From Acidovorax sp. NO-1 (GTDB lineage: Bacteria; Pseudomonadota; Gammaproteobacteria; Burkholderiales; Burkholderiaceae_C), in contig NZ_AGTS01000071.1 in NCBI RefSeq assembly GCF_000238595.1, forward strand, positions 62,001-126,000: a DNA stretch of 64,000 nt, written 5' to 3'. Shown in pieces: positions 22,594 to 60,270 of this stretch; position 1 is the first letter of the stretch; each line of letters opens with the position of its first letter. The notes beneath the pieces are model-generated. The model had not been told where the DNA came from and searched no databases. It saw nothing but the letters and a program-made list of their open reading frames with translations. The position numbers and the translations under genes are program-made.

Positions 22594-23640
22594 ATGATCG
22601 ACTTACGGGGTATCACCCAAACCTATCGGGGCGCACAAGGCCCGGTCGAGGCCCTGCGCGGCATCGACCTCAACATCCAGCCAGGCGAAGTGTTCGGCAT
22701 CATCGGCAAGAGCGGCGCGGGCAAGAGCTCGCTGGTGCGGGTGATCAACCTACTCAACCGGCCCACCACGGGCCAGGTGATCGTGGGTGGGCAGGACCTG
22801 ACCCAGCTGAACGACGCCCAACTGCGCGAGGCGCGCCGCGAGATCGGCATGGTCTTCCAGCACTTCAACCTGCTGTCGTCGCGCACCGTGTTTGACAACG
22901 CCGCGCTGCCGCTGGAGCTGGCGGGCATGGACAAGGCCGCCATCCGTGCGCGGGTGAACCCGCTGCTGGAGCTGGTGGGCCTGTCTGCCCTGGCCGACCG
23001 CTATCCGGCGCAGATCAGCGGTGGGCAAAAGCAGCGTGTGGGCATTGCGCGTGCGCTGGCCAGCCGCCCCAAGGTGCTGCTGAGCGACGAGGCCACCTCG
23101 GCGCTGGACCCGGAGACCACGCGCTCCATCCTCGACCTGCTGCGCCAGGTCAACCGCGAGCTGGGGTTGACGGTGGTGCTCATCACGCACCAGATGCAGG
23201 TCATCAAGCAGGTGGCCGACCGCGTGGCCGTGATTGAAGCGGGCCGCATCGTGGAGCAGGGCCGTGTGCTGGACGTGTTCACCCGCCCGCAGCAGGCCAT
23301 CACCAAAAGCCTGATCGACGAGATCCTGCCGCAGGAGCTGCCCGCCAGCGTGCTCGGCCATGTGCGCAAGCTCGCAGGCCAACTGAGCACAGGCCGCACC
23401 GGCCAGCTGCTGCGCCTGTCGTACGCGGGTGACAGCGCCTACCAGCCCATCCTGTCGCAGCTGATCCGCGAGTTTGGTGTGGACATGAGCATCCTGCACG
23501 GCCAGGTGGACGAGATCCAGGACGAAACCTTTGGCTCGCTGGCGGTGTATGCCAGTGGCGAGGCCCAGAGCGTGCGGGGCGCCGTGGCGCACCTGCGTGC
23601 CGGGGGTGTCGAGGTGCAAGAAGTGGCCGTGGCAGGCTGA
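22594..23640 (+). CDS. metN: Methionine ABC transporter ATP-binding protein
   Basis: A 348-residue ATPase of the D- and L-methionine importer. The ABC core has GKSGAGKSS (Walker A), the signature [15 protein letters not shown] and [14 protein letters not shown]. The C-terminal ~75 residues form the NIL (ACT-like) regulatory domain found in MetN, which binds methionine and inhibits transport in this family. metI follows 16 bp downstream. The matching substrate-binding gene metQ lies 8.7 kb further on rather than next in line. Confidence 0.95.
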
Positions 23641-23656
23641 AAGGGAGACTTCAATC

Positions 23657-24322
23657 ATGTTGGACAACTTCACGCCAGCCATGCTGGATCTGTTTGCCTC
23701 GTCGCTGTGGGAAACGCTGGTCATGGTTGGCATTTCGGGCATCGTGGGTGGCCTCATCGGCGTGCCGCTGGGCGTCTTTTTGCGGCTCACCGATCACGGC
23801 GGGGTGCTGGAAAACGGCCCCCTCAACAAGCTGGTGGGCTGGCTGGTGAATGCCGTGCGCTCCACGCCTTTCATCATCCTGCTGGTGGCCATCATCCCGC
23901 TCACGCGCTTCATCACGGGCTCGTCCATCGGCACGGCCGCTGCCGTGGTGCCCCTGACGATTGCCGCCGCCCCGTTTGTGGCGCGGCTGGTTGAATCGGC
24001 ATTGCGCGAGGTGGACCAAGGCCTGATCGAAGCCGCCCAGGCCATGGGCGCCACCACCGGCCAGATCGTGTGGAAGGTGCTGCTGCCCGAGGCGCTGCCC
24101 AGCATCGTGGCGGGGCTGACCATCACGTTCGTGAGCCTGACCGGCTACTCGGCCATGGCCGGTGCCATTGGCGGCGGCGGCCTGGGCGACCTGGGCATCC
24201 GCTACGGCTACCAGCGTTTTCTGCCAGAAATCATGCTGGCCGTGGTGCTGGTGCTGATCTTCTTTGTGCAGGCCGTGCAGAGCCTGGGCGACTGGGCGGT
24301 GCGCAGGCTGAGCCACCGGTGA
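23657..24322 (+). CDS. metI: Methionine ABC transporter permease
   Basis: A 221-residue inner-membrane protein with about five hydrophobic segments. The coupling-helix EAA motif is seen as EAAQAMGATTGQIVWKVLLPEALPS. The later MAGAIGGGGLGDLGIRYGYQRF is typical of MetI. An AAGGGAG Shine-Dalgarno sits before ATG 23657. It pairs with MetN. Confidence 0.95.
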   Translation: MLDNFTPAMLDLFASSLWETLVMVGISGIVGGLIGVPLGVFLRLTDHGGVLENGPLNKLVGWLVNAVRSTPFIILLVAIIPLTRFITGSSIGTAAAVVPLTIAAAPFVARLVESALREVDQGLIEAAQAMGATTGQIVWKVLLPEALPSIVAGLTITFVSLTGYSAMAGAIGGGGLGDLGIRYGYQRFLPEIMLAVVLVLIFFVQAVQSLGDWAVRRLSHR

Positions 24323-25936: not shown

Positions 25937-26953
25937 TCAGCCCTGGGTGCGGGGCCGCCATGCGTTCACGATGGCCACCAGCGACAGCATCACCGGCACC
26001 TCCACCAGCACGCCCACCACCGTGGCCAGCGCAGCGCCGGAGTTCAGGCCAAACAGCGATATCGCCACGGCCACCGCCAGCTCGAAGAAGTTGGACGTGC
26101 CGATCAGGCACGCGGGCCCGGCCACGTTGTGCGGCAGCTTGAGCCAGCGCGCGCCCACCCAGGTGATGAAGAAGATGCCGTAGCTCTGCAGGATGAGCGG
26201 GATGGCAATGAGCCCGATCACCAGGGGCTTGTCCACAATGGTGCCCGCCTGAAAGCCGAACAGCAGCACCACCGTGGCGATGAGCCCGACGATGGACCAC
26301 GGTTTGAGCGCCGCAACGAACTGCGCCAGGGATTCGCGTGATCGCCCAAGCAGCAGGTGGCGGGTGGCCATGCCGGCCAGCAGGGGCAGCACCACGTAGA
26401 GCACGGTGGACAGCAGCAGCGTCTGCCACGGCACGGTGACGTTGGTCACGCCCAATAAAAACGCGGCTATGGGCGCAAACGCAAACACCATGATGATGTC
26501 GTTGACCGACACCTGCACCAGCGTGTAGTTGGCGTCGCCTTTGACGAGCTGGCTCCACACAAAAACCATGGCGGTGCAGGGCGCCACACCCAGCAGGATC
26601 ATGCCCGCGATGTACTCGCTGGCCGATTGCGCATCCACCCAGGGCGCAAACAGGTACTGAAAGAACAACACACCCAGCGCCGCCATGGTGAAGGGCTTGA
26701 TCAGCCAGTTGACCACCAGCGTCAGCATGAGCCCCTGGGGCTTCTTGCCCACGTCCCTGATGGCGGTCCAGTCGATCTGGATCATCATCGGGTAGATCAT
26801 CACCCAGATGAACACCGCCACCACCAGGTTGACGTGCGCAACCTCCAGCGCGGCCACGGCCTGGAACAGACCCGGCGCCGCCAGGCCCAGGCCCACCCCG
26901 GCGCCTATGCCCAGGGCCACCCAGAGGCTCAGAAAACGTTCAAACAATCCCAT
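25937..26953 (-). CDS. acr3: Arsenite efflux permease, Acr3 family
   Basis: A 338-residue membrane protein with about ten hydrophobic segments. It carries the conserved Cys of Acr3 transporters in [15 protein letters not shown], and [12 protein letters not shown] and [13 protein letters not shown] as further family segments. It exports arsenite using the proton motive force. It is the last gene of the minus-strand arsenic cluster, following arsC by 111 bp. Acr3 and ArsB are unrelated; the sequence is clearly Acr3. Confidence 0.93.
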
Positions 26954-27064
26954 GGTGAATCCTTGTTGTTGTGTGGTCGATGGGTGGGGCGGGTCTGAAA
27001 GGTCAGAAGGCCCGACAGCATGACGCAGCCAGGCCCCGGAGGTTGCGCGATCGCGCCGGGCCTG

Positions 27065-27565
27065 TCAGCCCTTTTCGGTACCGATGCGGCGCAGCTCACT
27101 TTGCAGCGACAACCTGTCGAGCTTGTCAAACGGCAGGCTCAGAAAGATGGTGATGCGGCGGTTGAGCGTGATGAAGGCTTCGCTGAAGGCGCGCTGCCTG
27201 TCTTCTTCGCTGCCCTGTACGGCGGCGGGGTCGGGCACCCCCCAGTGGGCAGACAAGGGCTGGCCGGGCCACACGGGGCAGACCTCACCGGCGGCGTTGT
27301 CGCACACCGTGAGCACAAAGTCCATGGCGGGTGCGCCCGGCCGGGCGAACTCGTCCCAGTGCTTGCTGCGCAGGCCGTCGGTGTGAAAGCGGTTGCGCTG
27401 CAGCAGTTCCACAGCATAGGGGTTCACCTGCCCGGCAGGCTGGCTGCCCGCGCTGTAGGCCCGGTAGCGCCCGGCGCCCAGCTGGTTCAGGATGGTCTCG
27501 GCCATGATGCTGCGCGCCGAGTTGGCCGTGCAGATGAAGAGAACATTGAAGACGCGATACGACAT
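27065..27565 (-). CDS. arsC: Arsenate reductase, low-molecular-weight phosphatase type
   Basis: A 166-residue protein with the P-loop CTANSAR (Cys12 to Arg18) of low-molecular-weight tyrosine phosphatase-like arsenate reductases. The Asp general acid lies in WGVPDPAA. Another Cys occurs in LTVCDNAAGEVCPVWPG, matching the second and third catalytic Cys region of thioredoxin-coupled ArsC. It reduces arsenate to arsenite for export by Acr3. Confidence 0.92.
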   Translation of the reverse strand: MSYRVFNVLFICTANSARSIMAETILNQLGAGRYRAYSAGSQPAGQVNPYAVELLQRNRFHTDGLRSKHWDEFARPGAPAMDFVLTVCDNAAGEVCPVWPGQPLSAHWGVPDPAAVQGSEEDRQRAFSEAFITLNRRITIFLSLPFDKLDRLSLQSELRRIGTEKG

Positions 27566-27605
27566 GGAAGGCCTCTTTTGAAATGGGTGGTCGGTGTTGG
27601 GCAGG

Positions 27606-27938
27606 TCAGCAGGCGGTGCACTGCACTGCTGTGGTTGGGTCGTCCAGGCAGGGCTCACCCTGGCAGCAGTTGGCGGTCAGAAAACCCAGCAGCTGGTTCA
27701 TCGCGTCGATGCGGGGGCGGTAGACGAGGTTGCGGCCGTCGCGTTCTTGCGTGATCAGCCCGGCGTGTGTGAGCTCTTTGAGGTGAAACGACAGCGAGGT
27801 GGGCGATATGCAGAGCCCCTGCGCCATCTGGCCGGGTGTGGCGCCCTGCGGGCCTGCCACCACCAGCATGCGAAACGCCCGCAGGCGAGACTCCTGCGCC
27901 AGTGCGGCCAGGGCTTTGACGGCTTCCAGGTCGGTCAT
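27606..27938 (-). CDS. arsR: ArsR-family arsenic-responsive repressor (copy 1)
   Basis: A 110-residue winged-helix repressor. The DNA-recognition region reads ISPTSLSFHLKELTHAGL. Cys residues are clustered at the C-terminus (NCCQGEPC and a final CTAC), like the A. ferrooxidans type of ArsR that senses arsenite through C-terminal Cys residues. The classic ELCVCDL motif is absent. Its ATG overlaps the arsJ stop as ATGA. Confidence 0.93.
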   Translation of the reverse strand: MTDLEAVKALAALAQESRLRAFRMLVVAGPQGATPGQMAQGLCISPTSLSFHLKELTHAGLITQERDGRNLVYRPRIDAMNQLLGFLTANCCQGEPCLDDPTTAVQCTAC

Positions 27939-29242
27939 GCGGTGTCTCCTTGAAGTGAAGCCGGGGCTGCTGCAGGGCGCACCAGCGTGCAGGGTAGCGC
28001 CAGGGTCACCAGCCAGCAGATGATCAGCATCACCGCAGACCCGATCAGCGCGTAGAGCAGGCCCCCCCATTGGTACAGCAACCCTGAAAGCAGCGTGCCC
28101 ATGAACCGGCCGGCCGCATTGGCCGCATAGTAAAAGCCCACGTCTTCGGCCGCTTTCTCGCTGCCCGCATAGGCCAGGATGAGGTACGAGTGCACCGACG
28201 AGTTGACGGCAAACGCAAAGCCGAACACCGTGAGCCCTGCCACCACCACCCATTGCAGGTGGGGCACTTGCAGGTAGACGACGATGGCCAGCGCCACCGG
28301 CACCATGGCCAGCGCGGCAGACCACCAGCGCGCGGCGGGCACCTCGGCGCTCAGGCCATCGGGGCTGCGCTTGACGATGTGGGGCGCCAGGGCCTGCACC
28401 AGGCCGTAGCCGATGGTCCACGCGGCCAGAAAGCCGCCCACCATGGTGAAAGTCCAGCCAGAGGCGTACAAAAACACCGGCACGCCCACCACAAACCACA
28501 CATCCCGCGCGCCAAACAGCGCCACGCGCGCGGCTGCCAGCAGGTTGATGGCGGGGCTTTTGGCAAACAGCTCCCTGGCGGATCTGGAGGCCTTGGCCTT
28601 GCCCATGAGGGGCGGCACAAAGAGCACCACGCCCACCAGCACCAGCGCCAACAGCACTGCCATGGCCCACAGTGCGCCGCGAAAACCCAGCAGGTCCAGC
28701 AGCAGCCCGCCCAGGAAAAAGCCCACGCCCTTCATGGCGTTCTTGCTGCCCGTAAACCATGCCACCCATTTGAAGAGCTGGCCAGATCCCTGGTCCTTGG
28801 CCTGACTGGCGGTGATCTTGATGGCCGACTTGCTGGCCGTTTTGGTCAGGTCCTTGGCCACGCCGCAGATGCCCTGCGCCACTACCACCCACGCCACCGA
28901 CATCGCGGCAGTCCACTCGGGGTTGAGCGCGGACAGCAGCGCAAAACCGATGATCTGCGTGGTCAGGCCCACGGCCAGCATGCGGGCAATGCCGTAGCGC
29001 GTGGCCAGCCAGCCACCGATCAGGTTGGCGGCAATGCCTGCGGCCTCGTACAGCAAGAACAGAAACGCCAGCGTGAACGACGAATAGCCCAGGCGGTAAA
29101 AGTGCAGCAACACCAGCATGCGCAGCGCGCCGTCGGTGAGCGTAAAGCCCCAGTACGCGGCCGTGACGATGGCGTAGTTGCGGGCGGCGGCGTTGCCTGC
29201 GGGCGCGGGGGCTTGCGGGCCGGGCGTCAAGGTGCTGGTCAT
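27935..29242 (-). CDS. arsJ: ArsJ, MFS exporter of 1-arseno-3-phosphoglycerate
   Basis: A 435-residue protein with about 12 TM segments. The sequence resembles ArsJ, with RNYAIVTAAYWGFTLTDGAL near the N-terminus and DLTKTASKSAIK further in. ArsJ exports the unstable 1-arseno-3-phosphoglycerate made by the neighbouring GAPDH. The gap gene lies 5 bp upstream and arsR overlaps downstream, which is the typical partnership. Confidence 0.92.
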   Translation of the reverse strand: MTSTLTPGPQAPAPAGNAAARNYAIVTAAYWGFTLTDGALRMLVLLHFYRLGYSSFTLAFLFLLYEAAGIAANLIGGWLATRYGIARMLAVGLTTQIIGFALLSALNPEWTAAMSVAWVVVAQGICGVAKDLTKTASKSAIKITASQAKDQGSGQLFKWVAWFTGSKNAMKGVGFFLGGLLLDLLGFRGALWAMAVLLALVLVGVVLFVPPLMGKAKASRSARELFAKSPAINLLAAARVALFGARDVWFVVGVPVFLYASGWTFTMVGGFLAAWTIGYGLVQALAPHIVKRSPDGLSAEVPAARWWSAALAMVPVALAIVVYLQVPHLQWVVVAGLTVFGFAFAVNSSVHSYLILAYAGSEKAAEDVGFYYAANAAGRFMGTLLSGLLYQWGGLLYALIGSAVMLIICWLVTLALPCTLVRPAAAPASLQGDTA

Positions 29243-29247
29243 GGTAG

Positions 29248-30294
29248 TCAGATGCCCACGTCCTGCATGTGGCAGGCCAGGTCCACCATGCGGCAGGCGT
29301 AGCCCATTTCGTTGTCGTACCAGGCGTACACCTTCAGCAGCGTGCCATCGGTGACCATGGTGGACAGCGCATCGACGATGGAGCTGCGCGTGTCGCCCGC
29401 GTAATCGGCGCTGACCAGGGGGCGCTCGTCATAGCCCAGGATGCCTGCCAGTGGGCCTTGCGCTGCCGCAGCTGCAAACAGGGCGTTTACGGCCTCGGCG
29501 GTGGTGGGTTGGCTCAGCTCGAAAACGCAGTCGGTGAGCGACGCGTTGAGCACCGGTGCCCGCACGGCGTGGCCGTTGAGCTTGCCCTTGAGTTCCGGGT
29601 AGATGAGTGCAATGGCCGTGGCGCTGCCCGTGGTGGTGGGGGCCAGGCTCATCATGGCGCTGCGGGCGCGGCGCAGGTCTTTGTGGGGTGCGTCCACCAC
29701 CAGGTTGGTGTTGGTGGGGTTGTGGATGGTGGTGATCTGCCCGTGGCGGATGCCCAGGTTTTCATGCACCACCTTCACCACCGGCGCCAGGCAGTTGGTG
29801 GTGCACGATGCGGCCGTCACGATGTGGTCGCGGGCCGGGTTGTAGAGGTGGTGGTTGACGCCCACCACGATGTTGAGCACGTTCCCGGTCTTCACGGGCG
29901 CTGCCACGATCACACGCTTGGCGCCGCGGTCGAGGTGGCCTTGCAGGGTTTCGGGGGCGAGGAATTTGCCCGTGCATTCCAGTACAACGTCCACGCCCAG
30001 TTCGCCCCAGGGGATGTCGCCCGGGGTGGCGTAGCTGCTGAAGGACAGCTGTTGTTCGTCGATGCGGATGATGTCGTCGCCCGTTGTGCCAATGGCTGCG
30101 CGCCAGGGGCCTTGCACCGTGTCAAATGCCAGTAGATGGGCCGTGGCACCCGCACCGCCCTTGATTTCGTTCAGGTGCACCACCTGCAGACGGTTGTCGA
30201 TCCGTGGGTCGCTGCCGGGGCGGTGGGCTGCGCCCAGGGCGGCGCGCAGCGCCAGGCGGCCAATGCGGCCCATGCCGTTGATGCCTACTTTCAT
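29248..30294 (-). CDS. gap: ArsJ-associated glyceraldehyde-3-phosphate dehydrogenase
   Basis: A 348-residue GAPDH with the NAD-binding start [18 protein letters not shown], the catalytic [10 protein letters not shown], and the C-terminal [15 protein letters not shown]. Here it is expected to use arsenate in place of phosphate, making 1-arseno-3-phosphoglycerate for ArsJ. That role follows from gene order, not from any residue I can see. The start ATG 30294 has the standard GAPDH N-terminus; the open frame runs further upstream without conserved content. Confidence 0.93.
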
Positions 30295-30326
30295 TGGGGT
30301 GTTCCTGAGGGCTGAGGGATGAATTG

Positions 30327-30344
30327 ATTCGATGATCGTTGAAT
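30327..30344 (-). promoter_or_regulatory. candidate ArsR operator upstream of gap-arsJ
   Basis: ATTCG (30327-30331) and TTGAAT (30339-30344) form an imperfect inverted repeat 33 bp upstream of gap. On the minus strand it shares ATCGAATCA with the operator in front of the second arsR at 31340-31358. This suggests that both transcription units answer to ArsR. Confidence 0.45.
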
Positions 30345-30470
30345 TATTGATGTATTGCGTGACGGTTCGGTGACACAGCCGCACACCCTCGCCCCAAGGC
30401 CGATGCAGCACGGACCTGCAGGGAAGTGCAACCCTGGAGATCCGTGTCTCTGCAAGTTTTGCGGCGCCCG

Positions 30471-30977
30471 TCAGCAGCAGCGGGTGGAAGGGGTGGCCTC
30501 AGGGGCGCAGCATGCGGCCTTGTGAGCGGGGGTGGCTTCAATGTTGGTGGTAGCTGCGCCGGTAGCGCAGCAGGCGGCTGCCGCATCCTTGGGTGCTGCA
30601 GCCTCATTGAACAAGGGGATGTCTCCCAGCGTGTGAAAGTGCTCCCAGGCCACGCCTTCGGGGTCGGTCACCCAGTGTTTTTCGCTTCGCGCGTAGCAGC
30701 AGGTGGTGGCGCCTTCGTCCAGCAGAGCCATGTCGGCCGACTGGGCGCGGGCCCGGAGTTCGGCCAGTTCATCGGCGTCGTCCACCTGAAAGCCGAGGTG
30801 GTCGAGCCCGGTCTTTGCGCCCCGGGTGGAGATGGCGAAGTTCACGCGGGGGTCGTTCAGCATCCACTTGGCGTAATCGGTTTCGACGCGGGTGGGCGGG
30901 GCGGCGAACAGGCGGGAGTAGAACGCGATGCTCTGGCTGAGATCGCTCACGTGCATATGGACATGGAATCGCTTCAT
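30471..30977 (-). CDS. arsI: ArsI/CadI-family dioxygenase (C-As lyase)
   Basis: A 168-residue vicinal-oxygen-chelate protein. ArsI enzymes use Fe(II) and oxygen to cleave the C-As bond of methylarsenite and aromatic arsenicals. Conserved features are N-terminal His ([10 protein letters not shown]), His60 in GLDHLGFQ and Glu112 in AWEHFH as the likely metal ligands, and the adjacent Cys93-Cys94 in TTCCYA that binds the arsenical. The C-terminal ~35 residues are an extension with three further Cys pairs, ending STRCC. No arsM is in view, so external methylated arsenicals would be the likely substrate. Confidence 0.9.
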
Positions 30978-31011
30978 GGTGGCTTCTTCCTTTCGGTGGG
31001 GGGAGGGGTGT

Positions 31012-31338
31012 TCAGCAGCTGCAGGATGCGTCGTCGTCCGCCAGGCATGCGGTGGTGCCCTGGCAGCAGTTCTCGGTCAGGTAGGCCAGCAGACCGTTCA
31101 TGGCGGGGTAGGCGGCGCGGTAGACCAGGTTGCGGCCCTGGCGCTCCTGGGTCACCAGATCGGCGTTGGCCAGTTCCTTGAGGTGAAAAGACAGGGTGTT
31201 GGAGGCAATGCCCAGTTGTTCGGACAGGGCCCCAGGTGTGAGGCCCGCCTCGCCTGCGACCACGAGGGCGCGGAAGACACGCAGGCGCAGTTCATGCGCC
31301 AGTGCGGCGAGGGCGCGGATGACATCGGTTTCATTCAT
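31012..31338 (-). CDS. arsR: ArsR-family arsenic-responsive repressor (copy 2)
   Basis: A 108-residue winged-helix repressor with the recognition region IASNTLSFHLKELANADL and a Cys-containing C-terminus (NCCQGTTAC, then CSC). It is similar to the first copy at 27606-27938 but diverged, so it is a paralogue and not a recent duplicate. It is the first gene of the arsenic cluster and precedes arsI by 34 bp. Confidence 0.93.
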   Translation of the reverse strand: MNETDVIRALAALAHELRLRVFRALVVAGEAGLTPGALSEQLGIASNTLSFHLKELANADLVTQERQGRNLVYRAAYPAMNGLLAYLTENCCQGTTACLADDDASCSC

Positions 31339-31650: not shown

Positions 31651-32739
31651 ATGAGCCTGCCCCTGCACCCCCTGGATACCGAACTGTTTGCCCGCGCACT
31701 GCCGCTGCTGGACGACGATTGGCTCGCCCGCGACGCTGAACTGGCCCCCGTGCTGCCCATGGTGCTGGCGCGCAATGTGGGCCAGGACTGGCACAAGGCG
31801 GGCACGTTCCGCCACCACCTGGTGGGCGTGACACGCACCCTGACGGTGTGGCAGCAACCGCGTGATGTGCGCCTGCTGGGCCTGCTGCACAGCGTGTACG
31901 GCAATGCCTTTGTGGACCTGGTGAAGTTCGACCCCGCCAAGGAACGCGCCCGGGTGCGCGAGATTGCGGGCGAGTCGGCCGAGCACCTGGTCTACCTGTT
32001 CTGCACCCAGTCGCGCACGCAGTTTGTGCAGAAGGTGCTGGCCCACGCGCTGGAGGCTGATGGCAGCCTGGTGCTGCAAAAGGATGGGCAGCACCACGTG
32101 CTCACGCCCTGCGAGGTGGCGGCCTTCATCATCGTGAGCATGGCTGACACCATCGAGCAGTGGTTCAGCTGGCAGGACGACATCTTCTCGCGTTTCCCCG
32201 AGGTGCAGCACCGCCACCAGAAGGCGCACTGGGCCGCATCGCTCTGGCCCGGGCCCATGCGGCCGTCGGGGCGCATGGTGCACCAGATCAACGGGCTGGC
32301 CAAGGCGCTGCAGCACCCGGGGCTGAAGGGGCTGCTGCCCATGCCGCCCGTGTTTGACAACTGCACGCAGCACCTGTCTGCCGCCAACGAGGCGGCGGCC
32401 ACGTCGCTGTACTGGTCCGTCATCCAGCAGGACCAGCCCCTGGTGGACCTGGACGTGGCCACCGGCGTGCTGGAAAGCGCCGTGCGCCACAACCCCTGGG
32501 TGGGCGAGCCGCAGATGGTGCTGGCCCAGCTGTATCTGTCCGCTGGCCGCAAGGACGACGCCAAGGCCGCCGCCGAGAGCGCGCTGCACCTGTTCAGCGC
32601 CTGGGGCAATGCGTGGGACAAGCGCGTGCAGTGGGACGCCTGGGTGGCCTGGACGCGCATCCTGCTGCAGGGCGCGACGGTGGAGGGCACCTGGCCCGAG
32701 CGGCTGGACAAGCTCAACAACGTGGCGCTGCGGGGGTGA
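31651..32739 (+). CDS. DUF6817-like protein of unknown function
   Basis: A 362-residue soluble protein. The region around RHHLVGVTRTLTVWQQPRDV and LLGLLHSVYGNAF resembles DUF6817, an HD-like fold found scattered in bacteria and plants. The family assignment is from memory of the pattern. The C-terminal part has a helical-repeat look (QMVLAQLYLSAGRKDDAKAA), like a TPR. ATG 31651 has GGAG nearby and starts the conserved part. It is followed on the same strand by metQ, 268 bp on; whether it relates to methionine transport is unknown. Confidence 0.65.
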   Translation: MSLPLHPLDTELFARALPLLDDDWLARDAELAPVLPMVLARNVGQDWHKAGTFRHHLVGVTRTLTVWQQPRDVRLLGLLHSVYGNAFVDLVKFDPAKERARVREIAGESAEHLVYLFCTQSRTQFVQKVLAHALEADGSLVLQKDGQHHVLTPCEVAAFIIVSMADTIEQWFSWQDDIFSRFPEVQHRHQKAHWAASLWPGPMRPSGRMVHQINGLAKALQHPGLKGLLPMPPVFDNCTQHLSAANEAAATSLYWSVIQQDQPLVDLDVATGVLESAVRHNPWVGEPQMVLAQLYLSAGRKDDAKAAAESALHLFSAWGNAWDKRVQWDAWVAWTRILLQGATVEGTWPERLDKLNNVALRG

Positions 32740-32744
32740 CTTGG

Positions 32745-32872
32745 AACATCCCCCTGAGTGGCTGCGCCACTTCCCCCTTCTCTCGAATCGCTGCGCGATT
32801 CGGGAAGGGGGACGCAGCCCTCGCTGCGGGGCGGCCCTTGCTCGGCTGCCCTCGCCGGGCGCGCGCCAGTCT
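32745..32872 (+). repeat. GC-rich dispersed repeat, second family, copy 2
   Basis: This copy starts CCCCCTGAGTGGCTGCGCCA, continues with a strong hairpin (CCCCCTTC and CGAATCGC against GCGATTCG and GAAGGGGG, 32774-32811), and then has the shared core CTGCGGGGCGGCCCTTGC (32824-32841). The hairpin could act as a terminator for the DUF6817-like gene. Confidence 0.75.
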
Positions 32873-33007
32873 CATGAGCTGGGGGGTGAGGTGCACGGGT
32901 CTTGTCTTCTTATTCGAATGAGTTGTAATGAAATGAAAACTTAGTTGTTCCAGTTTTATCGGGAAAACCCTAGGATGCGAGCCATCTCTCAACGAAAGGG
33001 TTTCCCT

Positions 33008-33087
33008 GTGAACAACAACAAGCGCCTTCTCCTGCAATCCGCCCTGGCCCTGGCGGCTGCTGCCACTTTCTCGTCGGGGGCCATGGC
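33008..33087 (+). pseudogene. metQ: metQ 5' fragment (signal peptide), cut by IS
   Basis: From GTG 33008, preceded by AAAGGG, the frame encodes 26 complete codons: a basic N-terminus (MNNNKRLLL), a hydrophobic core (ALALAAAA) and a signal peptidase-like end (SSGAMA). The IS21-family element then interrupts it inside codon 27. Joining to base 35890 restores the frame exactly and gives AMAQDKPIKVGVTGG, a normal MetQ-type junction of signal peptide and mature protein. Confidence 0.9.
33081..33087. repeat. 7-bp target site duplication, left
   Basis: CCATGGC directly precedes the left IS end and is repeated exactly at 35883-35889. The duplicated site lies within metQ. Confidence 0.9.
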
Positions 33088-33090
33088 TGG

Positions 33091-33235
33091 GTATTTCGGA
33101 CCAACGTGACCGCTGGTTTCGGTATCGTGACCGAGGATTTCGGCCCATCGTGACCGACTCCGTTGTCGGTTCATCGTGACCGGCCGTTTCGGCAACGTGA
33201 CCGATCATTTCGGTCATCGTGACCGCCGTTTCAGC
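33091..33235 (+). repeat. multiple terminal repeats, left end of the IS
   Basis: About six imperfect units each end in CGTGACCG, most with an inner TTTCGG. These are likely binding sites for the IstA transposase. One unit is degenerate (TTGTCGG). Confidence 0.75.
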
Positions 33236-33328
33236 CCACGTTTTTGTGGGATCTGAAGCCAGGCGGTGCTGCGTAGAGAACTCAACCCGGGCGTCCTAAC
33301 CTCGACGGCTTTTGCCTTCAGGAGCCGG

Positions 33329-34852
33329 ATGCCCAAACCTCGAATTTCTCTACGCATGATCAAAGACGTTATCCGCCTGAAGTGGCAGGCCGACCTCTCT
33401 CACGAGCAAGTCGCCGCCACCCTCAACATCTCCAAAGGGGCCGTGGCCAAGTACGTTGGCCTGGCCCATGCTGCTGGCCTGGATTGGGAGACTGTCCAGG
33501 ATTGGAGCGAGCAGCGACTGACCTCCGCCCTGCTGCCCAAGGCCACCACCTCCCAGCCCTACATCACCCCCGACTGGGGCCGCATCCACCGCGAACTCGA
33601 CCGCAAGGGCGTGACACTCATGCTGCTGTGGCAGGAGTACGTGGAGGCCCATCCCCATGGTCGTACCTGGCGCTACACCCAGTTCTGCGGTCACTACAAG
33701 GACTTCGCCCAAACCCTCAAGCGCTCGATGCGCCAGCACCGGCGCGCCGGCGAGAAGCTGTTCATCGACTTCGCTGGCTCCACGGTGCCCTTGCGCGATG
33801 GCGCCCGTGCCCAGGTCTTCGTCTCGGCCATGGCCGCCTCCAGTTGCGTCTTTGCCTGCGCCACGCCCGCGCAGCGCCTGGATGACTGGGTCGAGGGCAT
33901 GGTGCGCGCTCTGCACTTCTACGGGGGTGTGCCGCAGCTCATCGTGCCTGACAACGCCCGTGCCGTGATCGCCTCGCCAGACCGTTACGAGCCACGTGCC
34001 AACGAGACGGTGCAGGACCTGGCCCGCTACTACGGCACCTCGGTGCTGCCTGCGCGCCCACGCACGCCGCGCGACAAGGCCACGGCTGAGAGCTCGGTTC
34101 AGGTCGTCACACGCTGGATCCTGGCCAGGCTGCGCCACCAGCGATTTGAGAGCGTCGCTCAGGTTGACGCGGCCATTGCGCAGCTGCTCCCCAGCCTGAA
34201 CGAGCGGCCGTTTCAGAAGCTGGCGGGCAGTCGCGCCAGTGTGTTCGCCGAGCTGGACGCCCCAGCCCTGATGCCGCTGCCGCAGCAACCCTATGAACTC
34301 GCGCGCTTCAAGACCGTGAAGGTCCATATCGACTACCACGTCGAGATCGACGGTCATCGTTACAGCGCACCGCACCCGCTGGTCGGTCAGACGCTGGAGG
34401 CTCGCATGACCGGGCGCGGCATCGAGTTGCTCTTGCGCGGCCAGCGCGTGGCCGCCCACGCGCGCAGCGACAAGCGTGGGGGTTTCTCTACCGTGGAGGC
34501 ACACATGCCCGCGGCCCACCGCGCCCACATGGAGTGGACGCCACAGCGCCTGATCGAATGGGGGCAGCGCATCGGTGTGGCCTGCGGTGAGTTGATCACC
34601 CGTTTGCTGCAGACCTACAAGCATCCCGAGCATGGCTACCGGTCTTGCCTGGGTTTGCTGAGCCTGTCCAAGAGGTACGGCCCGGTGCGACTGGAGGCCG
34701 CCTGCGAGCGGGCGTTGGCCCTGGGCACATTGCGCTACAGCCATGTGCGTGACTTGCTGGCCAACAACTGTGACCAGATCACGCCCCAGTCCGAGTCGGA
34801 CTGGACCAGCCCGGCGCACGCCAATCTGCGCGGCCCGGGCTACTACCAGTGA
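33329..34852 (+). CDS. istA: IS21 transposase IstA
   Basis: A 507-residue transposase with an N-terminal helix-turn-helix (SHEQVAATLNISKGAVAKYV) and a DDE integrase core. The acidic residues are seen in FIDFAGSTVPL (about 147), IVPDNARAVI (about 208) and the Glu of TAESSVQVV (about 253). ATG 33329 is preceded by AGGAG at a proper distance. A GTG at 33266 would lengthen it. A short (CCG)n-like tract lies between istA and istB (34865-34882). Confidence 0.93.
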   Translation: MPKPRISLRMIKDVIRLKWQADLSHEQVAATLNISKGAVAKYVGLAHAAGLDWETVQDWSEQRLTSALLPKATTSQPYITPDWGRIHRELDRKGVTLMLLWQEYVEAHPHGRTWRYTQFCGHYKDFAQTLKRSMRQHRRAGEKLFIDFAGSTVPLRDGARAQVFVSAMAASSCVFACATPAQRLDDWVEGMVRALHFYGGVPQLIVPDNARAVIASPDRYEPRANETVQDLARYYGTSVLPARPRTPRDKATAESSVQVVTRWILARLRHQRFESVAQVDAAIAQLLPSLNERPFQKLAGSRASVFAELDAPALMPLPQQPYELARFKTVKVHIDYHVEIDGHRYSAPHPLVGQTLEARMTGRGIELLLRGQRVAAHARSDKRGGFSTVEAHMPAAHRAHMEWTPQRLIEWGQRIGVACGELITRLLQTYKHPEHGYRSCLGLLSLSKRYGPVRLEAACERALALGTLRYSHVRDLLANNCDQITPQSESDWTSPAHANLRGPGYYQ

Positions 34853-34930
34853 GGTGGCGCCACCGCCGCCGCCGCCGCCACTGCCACCATTGTTTCTATC
34901 TCCAATCCACGGCTTCAGGACATCATCACC

Positions 34931-35734
34931 ATGCTCAACAACACCACCATCGCCCAGCTGCGCTCACTCAAACTCGTGGGCTTCGCCGATGCCTTGCAAC
35001 AGCAACACGAACAGGCCGACTGCCTGAATCTGTCCTTTGATGAGCGCCTGGCCTTGCTGGTCGAGCGCGAGGTCTACGCCCGCAGTGACCGCAAGCGAGC
35101 GCGTCTGCTGCAACAGGCGCAGCTCAAGTACCCCTCGGCCACCTTGGAGGACGCCAGCTTCGAGGGCATCCGGGGAATGGACCGTCCGGCCCTCATGGGC
35201 CTTGCGCTGTCCACCTGGATCGATCGCGGCGAGACGGTGACCCTGGCCGGTGCCACAGGCTTGGGCAAGACTTGGCTGGCGTGTGCGCTGGCCCAATACG
35301 CGTGCCGGCAAGGTCGCTCCGCGCTGTACTTGCGCGTGCCTCGACTGGCAGAAGAGCTGCGCATCTTGCATGGGGCCGGCAGCTTCCGACGCTGGCTACA
35401 GCAACTCGCCAAGATCGACGTGCTGGTGCTGGACGACTGGGGCATCGGACACCTGGACGCCGCCACGCGTGCCGATTTGCTGGAGGTCATCGATGACCGG
35501 GTGGGGCAGCGCGCCACCATCATCGCCCACCAATTGCCCATCGAGCATTGGCACGCCTGGCTGGGCGACCCCACCGTTGCCGACGCCATTCTGGACCGGT
35601 TGCTGCAGAGTTGCCGGCGCTTCAGCCTGGACGGCGAGTCGCGACGAACGGGCCGCACGGCGCGCACTGCAACCGTTTCAAAAACGACCATCAAGGACCC
35701 CCATGAAGACCTGACAGCCTCTCCAAAACCGTAA
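34931..35734 (+). CDS. istB: IS21 helper ATPase IstB
   Basis: A 267-residue AAA+ ATPase related to DnaC. Walker A is GATGLGKT (near 106) and Walker B lies in DVLVLDDWGIG. Sensor motifs such as RATIIAHQLPIEHW follow. IstB assembles on target DNA and stimulates IstA. It lies 78 bp after istA. Confidence 0.93.
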   Translation: MLNNTTIAQLRSLKLVGFADALQQQHEQADCLNLSFDERLALLVEREVYARSDRKRARLLQQAQLKYPSATLEDASFEGIRGMDRPALMGLALSTWIDRGETVTLAGATGLGKTWLACALAQYACRQGRSALYLRVPRLAEELRILHGAGSFRRWLQQLAKIDVLVLDDWGIGHLDAATRADLLEVIDDRVGQRATIIAHQLPIEHWHAWLGDPTVADAILDRLLQSCRRFSLDGESRRTGRTARTATVSKTTIKDPHEDLTASPKP

Positions 35735-35766
35735 ACTCAACCCCCTACGCAGCACCGCCAGCATCA

Positions 35767-35880
35767 CGGCGGTCACGATCGCCGAAACGGGCGGTCACGT
35801 TACCGAAACGGCGCTGAGAACATCGCTCAGCCCACCGGTCACGATGCGCCGAAATGACCGGTCACATTCGCCGAAATACG
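35767..35880 (-). repeat. multiple terminal repeats, right end of the IS
   Basis: About four copies of the CGGTCAC...CCGAAA unit lie in inverse orientation to those at the left end. The outermost one ends in CGAAATACGCA. Confidence 0.75.
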
Positions 35881-35882
35881 CA

Positions 35883-35889
35883 CCATGGC
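35883..35889. repeat. 7-bp target site duplication, right
   Basis: CCATGGC is identical to 33081-33087. It supplies an ATG (35885) in frame with the mature part of metQ. Confidence 0.9.
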
Positions 35890-36613
35890 CCAGGACAAGC
35901 CCATCAAGGTGGGCGTGACGGGCGGCCCCCACGCGCAGATCTTCGAGCAGGTGAAGAAGGTGGCCGAGAAAGACGGCCTCAAGATCCAGGTCATCGAGTT
36001 CAGCGACTACGTGCAGCCCAACGCCGCGCTGGCCGCGGGCGACCTGGACGCCAACAGCTACCAGCACAAGCCCTACCTCGACGCACAGGTCAAAGACCGT
36101 GGCTACAAGCTGGTGTCGGTGGGCTACACCGTCAACTTCCCCATCGGCCTGTATTCGAAGAAGGTCAAGAAGCTCGAAGACCTGAAGGAAGGCGCCAAGT
36201 TCGGCATCCCCAACGACCCCACCAACGGCGGCCGCGTGCTGCTGGTGCTGCAAGACCAGGGCCTGATCAAGCTGCGCGACGGCGCGGGCCTGAAAGCCAC
36301 GCCGCTCGATGTGGTGAGCAACCCCAAGAAACTCAAGTTTGTGGAGCTGGATGCCGCGCAGCTCCCGCGTTCGCTCGATGACCTGGACGCCTCGGCCATC
36401 AACACCAACTTCGCGCTGTCGGCGGGCCTGAACCCCGGCAAGGACGCGATTGCGCAGGAAAACGCCAAGGGGCCGTATGTCAACCTGATCGCCGTGCGCG
36501 AGGCCGACAAGGATAAGCCCTGGGTGGCCAAGCTGCTCAAGGCCTACCAGTCGGAAGAGGTGAAGAAGTTCATCCAGACCGAGTTCAAGGGCTCGGTGCT
36601 GCCGGGGTTCTGA
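35885..36613 (+). pseudogene. metQ: metQ 3' fragment (mature methionine-binding protein)
   Basis: This 242-residue frame starts at the ATG inside the target duplication. It encodes a full mature NlpA/MetQ-type protein: KVGVTGGPHAQIFEQVKKVA near the N-terminus, FSDYVQPNAALAAGDLDANS, and TNFALSAG. MetQ delivers methionine to MetNI in the periplasm. The signal peptide lies on the other side of the IS, so any product made from this ATG would stay in the cytoplasm. An outward IS promoter could drive it, but I cannot show one. The original gene was 268 codons by joining at the duplication. Confidence 0.93.
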
Positions 36614-36673
36614 GCCTACGGGCAGGCGCACCCGGCAAGGGCGCAAGCCTGAACAGTGCCGCCAATAAACGCA

Positions 36674-36742
36674 GTTTTAAACAAATCGGCCCCGGGCGCT
36701 TATGCAATAAGCGCCAATAGCTATTAATTTTATAGCGATGGG
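36674..36742 (-). repeat. dispersed stem-loop repeat, copy 7
   Basis: On the minus strand: TCGCTATAAAATTAATAGC, TATTGGCGCTTATTGCATAAGCGCC, then CGGGGCCGATTTG. The central stem GGCGCTTAT/ATAAGCGCC is perfect with a TGC loop. It lies in the gap after metQ. Confidence 0.9.
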
Positions 36743-36858
36743 GCAGCGCAGTGCCCCGTGCCGGGGCCGGGTGATGCAGCGGGCTGCGCTTGCAGACACA
36801 ATGGGAGTGTTAACGTTCTGTAGCATTTCGCACAGTACATCCCACCCCACGGCGCCCC

Positions 36859-59283: not shown

Positions 59284-60201
59284 ATGCAAAGACGACAGTT
59301 TTCCTTGGGTTTGATGGCCGCTACCACCATGCCTCTTTGGGGTTGCGCGGCTACCAGCAACGCAGCGGGCCGCAACAAGACCACCCGCGAATGGAACGAG
59401 ACGCTCGCCCACATCGAACGCACCGCCCAGGGCCGTTTGGGCGTGGCCATGCTGGACATGGGCTCGGGCCTGCAGTTGGGCTGGCGCCAGGACGAGCGCT
59501 TTGCCATGGCCAGCACCTTCAAGGCGGTGCTGGCGGGCTGGATGCTGGCGCTGGTGGACCAGGGCAGGGAGCGGCTGGATGCCCGCGTGCACTACGCGGT
59601 GGCCGATGTGGTGGCGTATTCGCCCGTCAGCGGCCCCCGCGCGGGCGATGGGGGCGGGTTGACGGTGGGCGAGCTGTGCGCCGCCACCGTGAGCCTGAGC
59701 GACAACACCGCCGCCAATGTCTTGCTGGCGCGCCATGGCGGGCCGGCTGGGTTCACGGCCTTTGTGAGATCACTGGGCGACAGCATCACGCGGCTGGACC
59801 GCACCGAGCCAACGCTGAACGAGGCCGCTGTGGGCGACCCGCGCGACACGACCACGCCGCTGGCCATGTTGCAGACCCTGCAAAAGCTGGTGCTGGGCGA
59901 TGTGCTTACGCCACCGTCGCGCGCGTGGCTGCAGCGCTGGCTGGTAGAGACGAGCACGGGCGACAAGCGCCTGCGCGCGGGAGTGCCGGGCTGGAAGGTG
60001 GGGGACAAGACGGGAACGGCGGGAGACAGCGGCACGGCCAACGACATCGGGGTCATGTGGCCTCCCGGCGGAGGCGCCCCAGTGCTGGTGACCTGTTACC
60101 TCACGCGGTCCACCGCCAAGCCGGAGCAGCGCGATGCGGCGATCGCCGAGGTGGCACGGGCCGTGGCGGCGGCGCGGGAGATGTTCAGTAGGGGTGAATG
60201 A
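59284..60201 (+). CDS. bla: Class A beta-lactamase
   Basis: A 305-residue serine beta-lactamase. All class A motifs are seen: S77-T-F-K80 in MASTFKAVL, the SDN loop (S139-D140-N141), the omega-loop EPTLNEAAVGDPRDTTTP with its catalytic Glu, and KTG in GDKTGTAGDSG. The residue before the active Ser is Ala and not Cys, so the carbapenemase-type disulfide is absent. The N-terminus RRQFSLGLM looks like a twin-arginine signal, followed by LWGC, which weakly resembles a lipobox. Export by Tat is therefore possible. It lies divergent from an AmpR-like regulator. Confidence 0.93.
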   Translation: MQRRQFSLGLMAATTMPLWGCAATSNAAGRNKTTREWNETLAHIERTAQGRLGVAMLDMGSGLQLGWRQDERFAMASTFKAVLAGWMLALVDQGRERLDARVHYAVADVVAYSPVSGPRAGDGGGLTVGELCAATVSLSDNTAANVLLARHGGPAGFTAFVRSLGDSITRLDRTEPTLNEAAVGDPRDTTTPLAMLQTLQKLVLGDVLTPPSRAWLQRWLVETSTGDKRLRAGVPGWKVGDKTGTAGDSGTANDIGVMWPPGGGAPVLVTCYLTRSTAKPEQRDAAIAEVARAVAAAREMFSRGE

Positions 60202-60270
60202 ATCCGGCGTGGCCGAGGAGGGGGTGTGTTTTTACCGGACGAGCGGGCATGGCGGGTTGGTTCCCCCTTC

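Follow-up and report, generated by a model that had tools for sequence, protein, structure and literature searches.

Inactivation of transporter genes by insertion sequences is commonplace, and the case described here, in a strain of Acidovorax, is an ordinary one of its kind: an IS21-family element lies inside metQ. IS21 elements, in two published accounts, insert without strong target specificity and with some clustering near promoters (PMC10122671, PMC11208146), and the second gives the catalytic residues of IstA as D124, D187, and E233, spaced 63 and 46. On the importer side, published work describes MetQ of Neisseria meningitidis as lipidated (PMC8416018), methionine synthesis and transport in Salmonella as backing each other up (PMC6005444), and, for E. 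coli, a proposed entry of pyrithione via the methionine importer, with a metQ knockout growing comparatively better (PMC8510280).

We analysed a window of 64,000 nucleotides lying in contig C91 of a draft genome (5.01 Mb, 161 contigs). Its genus is most probably Acidovorax, to which all of the eight closest named matches of mature MetQ (L006-L013) are assigned. We consider it very probable that an IS21-family element inserted into metQ after this strain split from its sister strain, genome G015, separating the signal peptide from mature MetQ, and that import through MetNI is lost or strongly reduced as a consequence.

An IS21-family element inside metQ

The features that bear on this reading are as follows, in window coordinates.

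22594 to 23640, plus strand: metN, intact frame for the ATP-binding subunit of 348 aa (TIGR02314 the best match, below the strict cut-off; NIL domain above cut-off)
23657 to 24322, plus strand: metI, intact frame for the permease of 221 aa (above the cut-off of NF008049)
33008 to 33087, plus strand: 5′ part of metQ with its GTG initiation codon and the signal peptide (from the sequence; uninterrupted in G015)
33081 to 33087, no strand: left copy of the target duplication, 7 bp, CCATGGC (from the sequence)
33088 to 35882, plus strand: complete IS21-family element, 2795 bp (istA and istB content, flanking duplication, family models; no counterpart in G015)
33105 to 33226, plus strand: left-end motif array, six GTGACC copies, the first at 33106, spacing 21-26 bp (motif scan)
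33329 to 34852, plus strand: istA, IS21-family transposase, 507 aa, ATG at 33329, frame intact (NF033546)
34931 to 35734, plus strand: istB, AAA+ helper ATPase, 267 aa, frame intact (PF01695)
35771 to 35865, minus strand: right-end motif array, four GTGACC copies on the opposite strand (motif scan)
35883 to 35889, no strand: right copy of the target duplication, 7 bp, CCATGGC (from the sequence)
35885 to 36613, plus strand: mature part of metQ, a leaderless frame of 242 codons counted from an internal ATG (sequence, family models)

A sequence-only reading had placed the element and its two flanking CCATGGC copies at these very positions, which are exact, and had assigned it to IS21, an assignment that profile searches bear out. 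IstA scores 256.6 bits against NF033546 (transpos_IS21; cut-off 160), and IstB, with a Walker A motif (GATGLGKT) at residue 107, scores 223.4 bits against PF01695 (E 4e-66; cut-off 24.1). With the Pfam profiles, IstA lies above the cut-off of Mu-transpos_C_2 and below that of rve. Its candidate catalytic residues, chosen from the motif rather than from an alignment, are D147, D208, and E254, spaced 61 and 46. The element has terminal inverted repeats that carry repeated motifs and end in CA; its termini read TGGGTATTTCGG on the left and, on the reverse strand, TGCGTATTTCGG on the right. The GTGACC copies, about 22 bp apart, span 33106-33219 (six, left) and 35771-35860 (four, right). Insertion produced a 7-bp duplication, for which an empty site is available for comparison; the target, GCCATGGC, is perfectly palindromic. 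Taken together, these features support a complete IS21-family element with both frames intact.

Motif clusters of this type also occur at related loci: 11 of the 25 scanned (L087, L111-L119, and L121) have a cluster of at least four GTGACC-type motifs, and in L113, L115, L117, L118, and L119 six copies are spaced exactly 23 bp.

The element is present once in its own genome. A whole-genome search found no further copies or stray ends beyond the full copy, the cross-matching of its ends, and one 29-base match. Of the genus, 47 genomes were searched; matches occur in 17 of them, mostly short or at 64-76% identity, and near-identical ends were found only in G013, a second species. There, at contig ends, lie two left ends (0/95 mismatches each) and two right ends (2/95 each) whose flanks pair as duplications of ACCAG (5 bp) and GTTGGT (6 bp); the inner part of these copies is missing from the assembly, so their identity as the whole element is extrapolated from the ends. 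The same genome additionally carries a distant relative at 65-69%. In a family-level sample, some match was present in 193 of 399 genomes (two candidates scored per genome), the longest other one among the matches listed being 70% over positions 1-2521. Matches were also found in 349 plasmid records, 15 of them at 80-90% in their best place and none higher, with a single record, at 68%, covering at least 80% of the element. Sixteen phage records hold IstA relatives, the best at 49.7%.

One IS21-type element appears to yield duplications of 5, 6, and 7 bp across two Acidovorax species. Because the two insertions in G013 have different target sequences, the exact fall of the metQ insertion at the signal/mature border looks like chance. 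Targeting of signal-peptide borders is not supported, with three insertion sites in all. At 80 bp into the gene, the metQ site would be compatible with the clustering near promoters.

The broken gene and its empty site in relatives

The earlier claim that metQ is split exactly between signal peptide and mature protein holds for the border, with the refinement that the insertion splits the codon for the final residue of the signal (GC before the element, C after it); the cleavage site itself is placed by the AMA motif. Joining the flanks with a single copy of CCATGGC restores an 804-bp frame with the junction GAMA-QDKP. Frame and junction are as the sequence-only reading gave them, but its count of 268 codons includes the stop, the protein having 267 residues. 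In the interrupted gene, the 5′ frame continues into the element and ends after 33 residues at a stop at 33107-33109.

If the allele is not null, then transcription from the element or read-through should lead to translation from the internal ATG and give a cytoplasmic or partly active MetQ. We regard this as quite unlikely. In its favour, the mature part is an unbroken frame opening with the ATG at 35885, from which a leaderless protein could arise, and istB is read in the same direction about 150 bp before it. Against this, an in-frame stop at 35855-35857 lies 27 bp before that ATG, no further ATG, GTG, or TTG occurs in between, and the sequence ahead of the ATG contains no Shine-Dalgarno-like element. 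The mature part had been credited with a start codon of its own; the ATG and the lack of a signal are as described, but the codon is an ordinary internal Met codon. It is ATG in G015 too and in 23 of 80 relatives, which rules out a conserved alternative start. Because the codon is ordinary, is ATG in so few relatives, and lacks a preceding Shine-Dalgarno-like sequence, a useful new start at the duplication is doubtful. No sigma-70-like promoter was found in 32700-36800, which counts against an outward promoter from the element, weakly, as metQ's own promoter was equally unfound. Moreover, from established ABC-importer biology, a leaderless protein would be unable to serve MetNI from the periplasm. 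We therefore retain the reading in which the insertion disables metQ.

The one same-species genome compared, G015, is assembled in one contig and carries the uninterrupted site: the joined flanks are identical at 893 of 911 bases, with no gaps. Because G015 has exactly this empty site, chance is excluded as the origin of what we observe. Identity to G015 is 98.7% over 33,087 bases on the left and 98.5% over 24.3 kb on the right, and the element is the sole large insertion in the aligned stretch. The element had no match in G015 with six candidates scored, nor with 40 in a second search. As clean loss from G015 would also have to delete one copy of the duplication, insertion in the line of this strain is much the simpler account.

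G015 has one metQ gene, with 99% DNA identity across the mature part, and all eight codons that differ there are synonymous. Since long drift after insertion is expected to leave amino-acid changes, this pattern points to a recent event, as support rather than proof; it would also be compatible with a gene on which selection still acts. In the signal peptide, the two strains do show amino-acid differences (AAAATFSSGAM in this strain, AAAAAVSTGAM in G015), which we read as ordinary, similar variation being present among relatives.

The remainder of the window holds other features. Between metNI and metQ lies an arsenic-resistance cluster (25937-31338), comprising acr3, an arsC-like gene, arsJ and its GAPDH partner, an arsI-like gene, and, assigned by eye, ArsR-like genes; it is collinear in G015, and its arsC-like match is below that model's cut-offs. 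Two stretches, 27658-27914 and 31058-31314, cross-match in the G015 alignment at about 70%, both within ArsR-like frames, and may be a duplicated regulator. At 60181-60269, 89 bases here and 132 in G015 are unaligned amid collinear DNA. The 64,000-nt window contains no tRNAs and no match to RNA families at gathering score.

We extended the comparison to 80 named relatives' loci (4.9 to 10.7 kb), which were chosen by their match to mature MetQ, represent metQ-bearing genomes of other species, and reach a best flank identity of 86.9%. None of the 80 has any match to the element, and in every one the frame ahead of the mature part is open for 20 codons or more. Together with the empty site in G015 and the all-synonymous differences, these loci support a strain-specific, recent IS21-family insertion, as the sequence-only reading had surmised, and supply the uninterrupted metQ that it proposed to look for.

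Across the genus, PF03180 is above its cut-off in 42 of 47 genomes, the exceptions being G001, G007, G008 (where the match is weak), G023, and G032. A NIL domain, present in G014 and G015, is likewise missing from all five. Three of them are fragmentary (listed completeness 90% for G001, 75% for G007, and 72% for G032); G008 and G023, with a listed completeness of 100%, lack both a NIL-domain metN and a metQ above the family cut-off. In these two the predicted importer is lost as a whole. Because two essentially complete Acidovorax genomes are without both metN and metQ, loss is evidently tolerated, and the predicted MetNIQ importer is widely kept yet dispensable in the genus.

Probable consequences for methionine import

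The mature protein covers positions 1-236 of 236 of PF03180, the full-length NlpA/MetQ domain, and scores 279.4 bits against TIGR00363 (cut-off 228.85); against the stricter MetQ model NF008285 it scores 292.1, below the cut-off of 374. A profile search of the whole genome found this one PF03180 match, which excludes a second metQ rescuing the function. Although the family models label MetQ a lipoprotein, its signal contains no cysteine; among the 80 relatives, the 22 residues that directly precede the mature part include a cysteine in three and none in 77.

We propose the following sequence of events. After divergence from G015, the element transposed into metQ through a staggered 7-bp cut at CCATGGC that was then duplicated, as the empty site shows. 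In the sequence, a Sec-type signal, its cleavage site placed by the AMA motif, is thereby cut apart from the methionine-binding protein. What is left of the 5′ part is a 33-residue stub, and the mature frame lies behind a stop codon with a poor translation start, so that any product should stay in the cytoplasm. Because a leaderless product would remain there, MetNI should lack its periplasmic binding protein, as expected from ABC-importer biology, and high-affinity methionine import would be lost or strongly reduced. Since metQ is the sole PF03180 gene in the genome, loss or reduction of MetNI-dependent uptake is likely, in agreement with the earlier prediction from the sequence.

The loss is probably bearable. 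A domain search found methionine-synthase domains on two contigs, C87 and C116, and split metH genes are usual in this order; PF01053 enzymes give 13 matches, nine of them above cut-off. Because these domains and enzymes are present, the cell probably makes its own methionine.

If the insertion was itself selected, then loss of MetQ may exclude a toxic methionine-like or metal-chelating compound present where this strain lives, and metQ would be an occasional loss-of-function target in Acidovorax. The better growth of the E. coli metQ knockout with pyrithione fits this idea, as does the absence of both metN and metQ from two essentially complete Acidovorax genomes. The insertion is a single event, however, and the 80 loci, which were chosen for an intact mature part and could miss others, contain no second metQ disruption; we consider selection unlikelier still than a functional allele. 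A draft assembly (161 contigs) that misjoined element and gene is extremely improbable, as the duplication is perfect at both junctions and the single-copy element is internal to a contig at least 126 kb long, where the sequence on either side of it is collinear with G015. In G013, by contrast, contigs end at the element.

Inactivation of metQ by a recent insertion remains our preferred reading. Because a methionine-importer gene present only once is cleanly interrupted in this strain and the sister keeps the empty site, the two could form a natural test pair; judged from titles, no paper naming this insertion was found.

Comparison with described elements and importers

The element resembles IS21 and IS5376 in having istA followed by istB, TG...CA ends, repeated binding-type motifs at the ends, a short target duplication, and an IstA with a DDE-like spacing of 61 and 46, compared with 63 and 46 in IS5376. 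It departs from them in several respects. A gap of 78 bp separates istA from istB. The usual IS21 arrangement, according to PMC10122671, is two repeats per end, whereas this element has six on the left and four on the right; and the duplication given for IS5376 in PMC10122671 and PMC11208146 is 5 bp, as against the 7 bp of the metQ insertion and the 5 and 6 bp of those in G013. The closest plasmid match, an element annotated with istA and istB on the Cupriavidus oxalaticus plasmid NZ_CP032520.1, reaches 68.0% over 91%, an identity well under that expected for one and the same element.

Family models assign metN, metI, and metQ of this strain to a MetNIQ system, in which metQ lies about 9 kb from metNI, within the same window, and is interrupted. 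Unlike the lipidated MetQ of N. meningitidis, the cysteine-free MetQ of this strain looks like a secreted protein.
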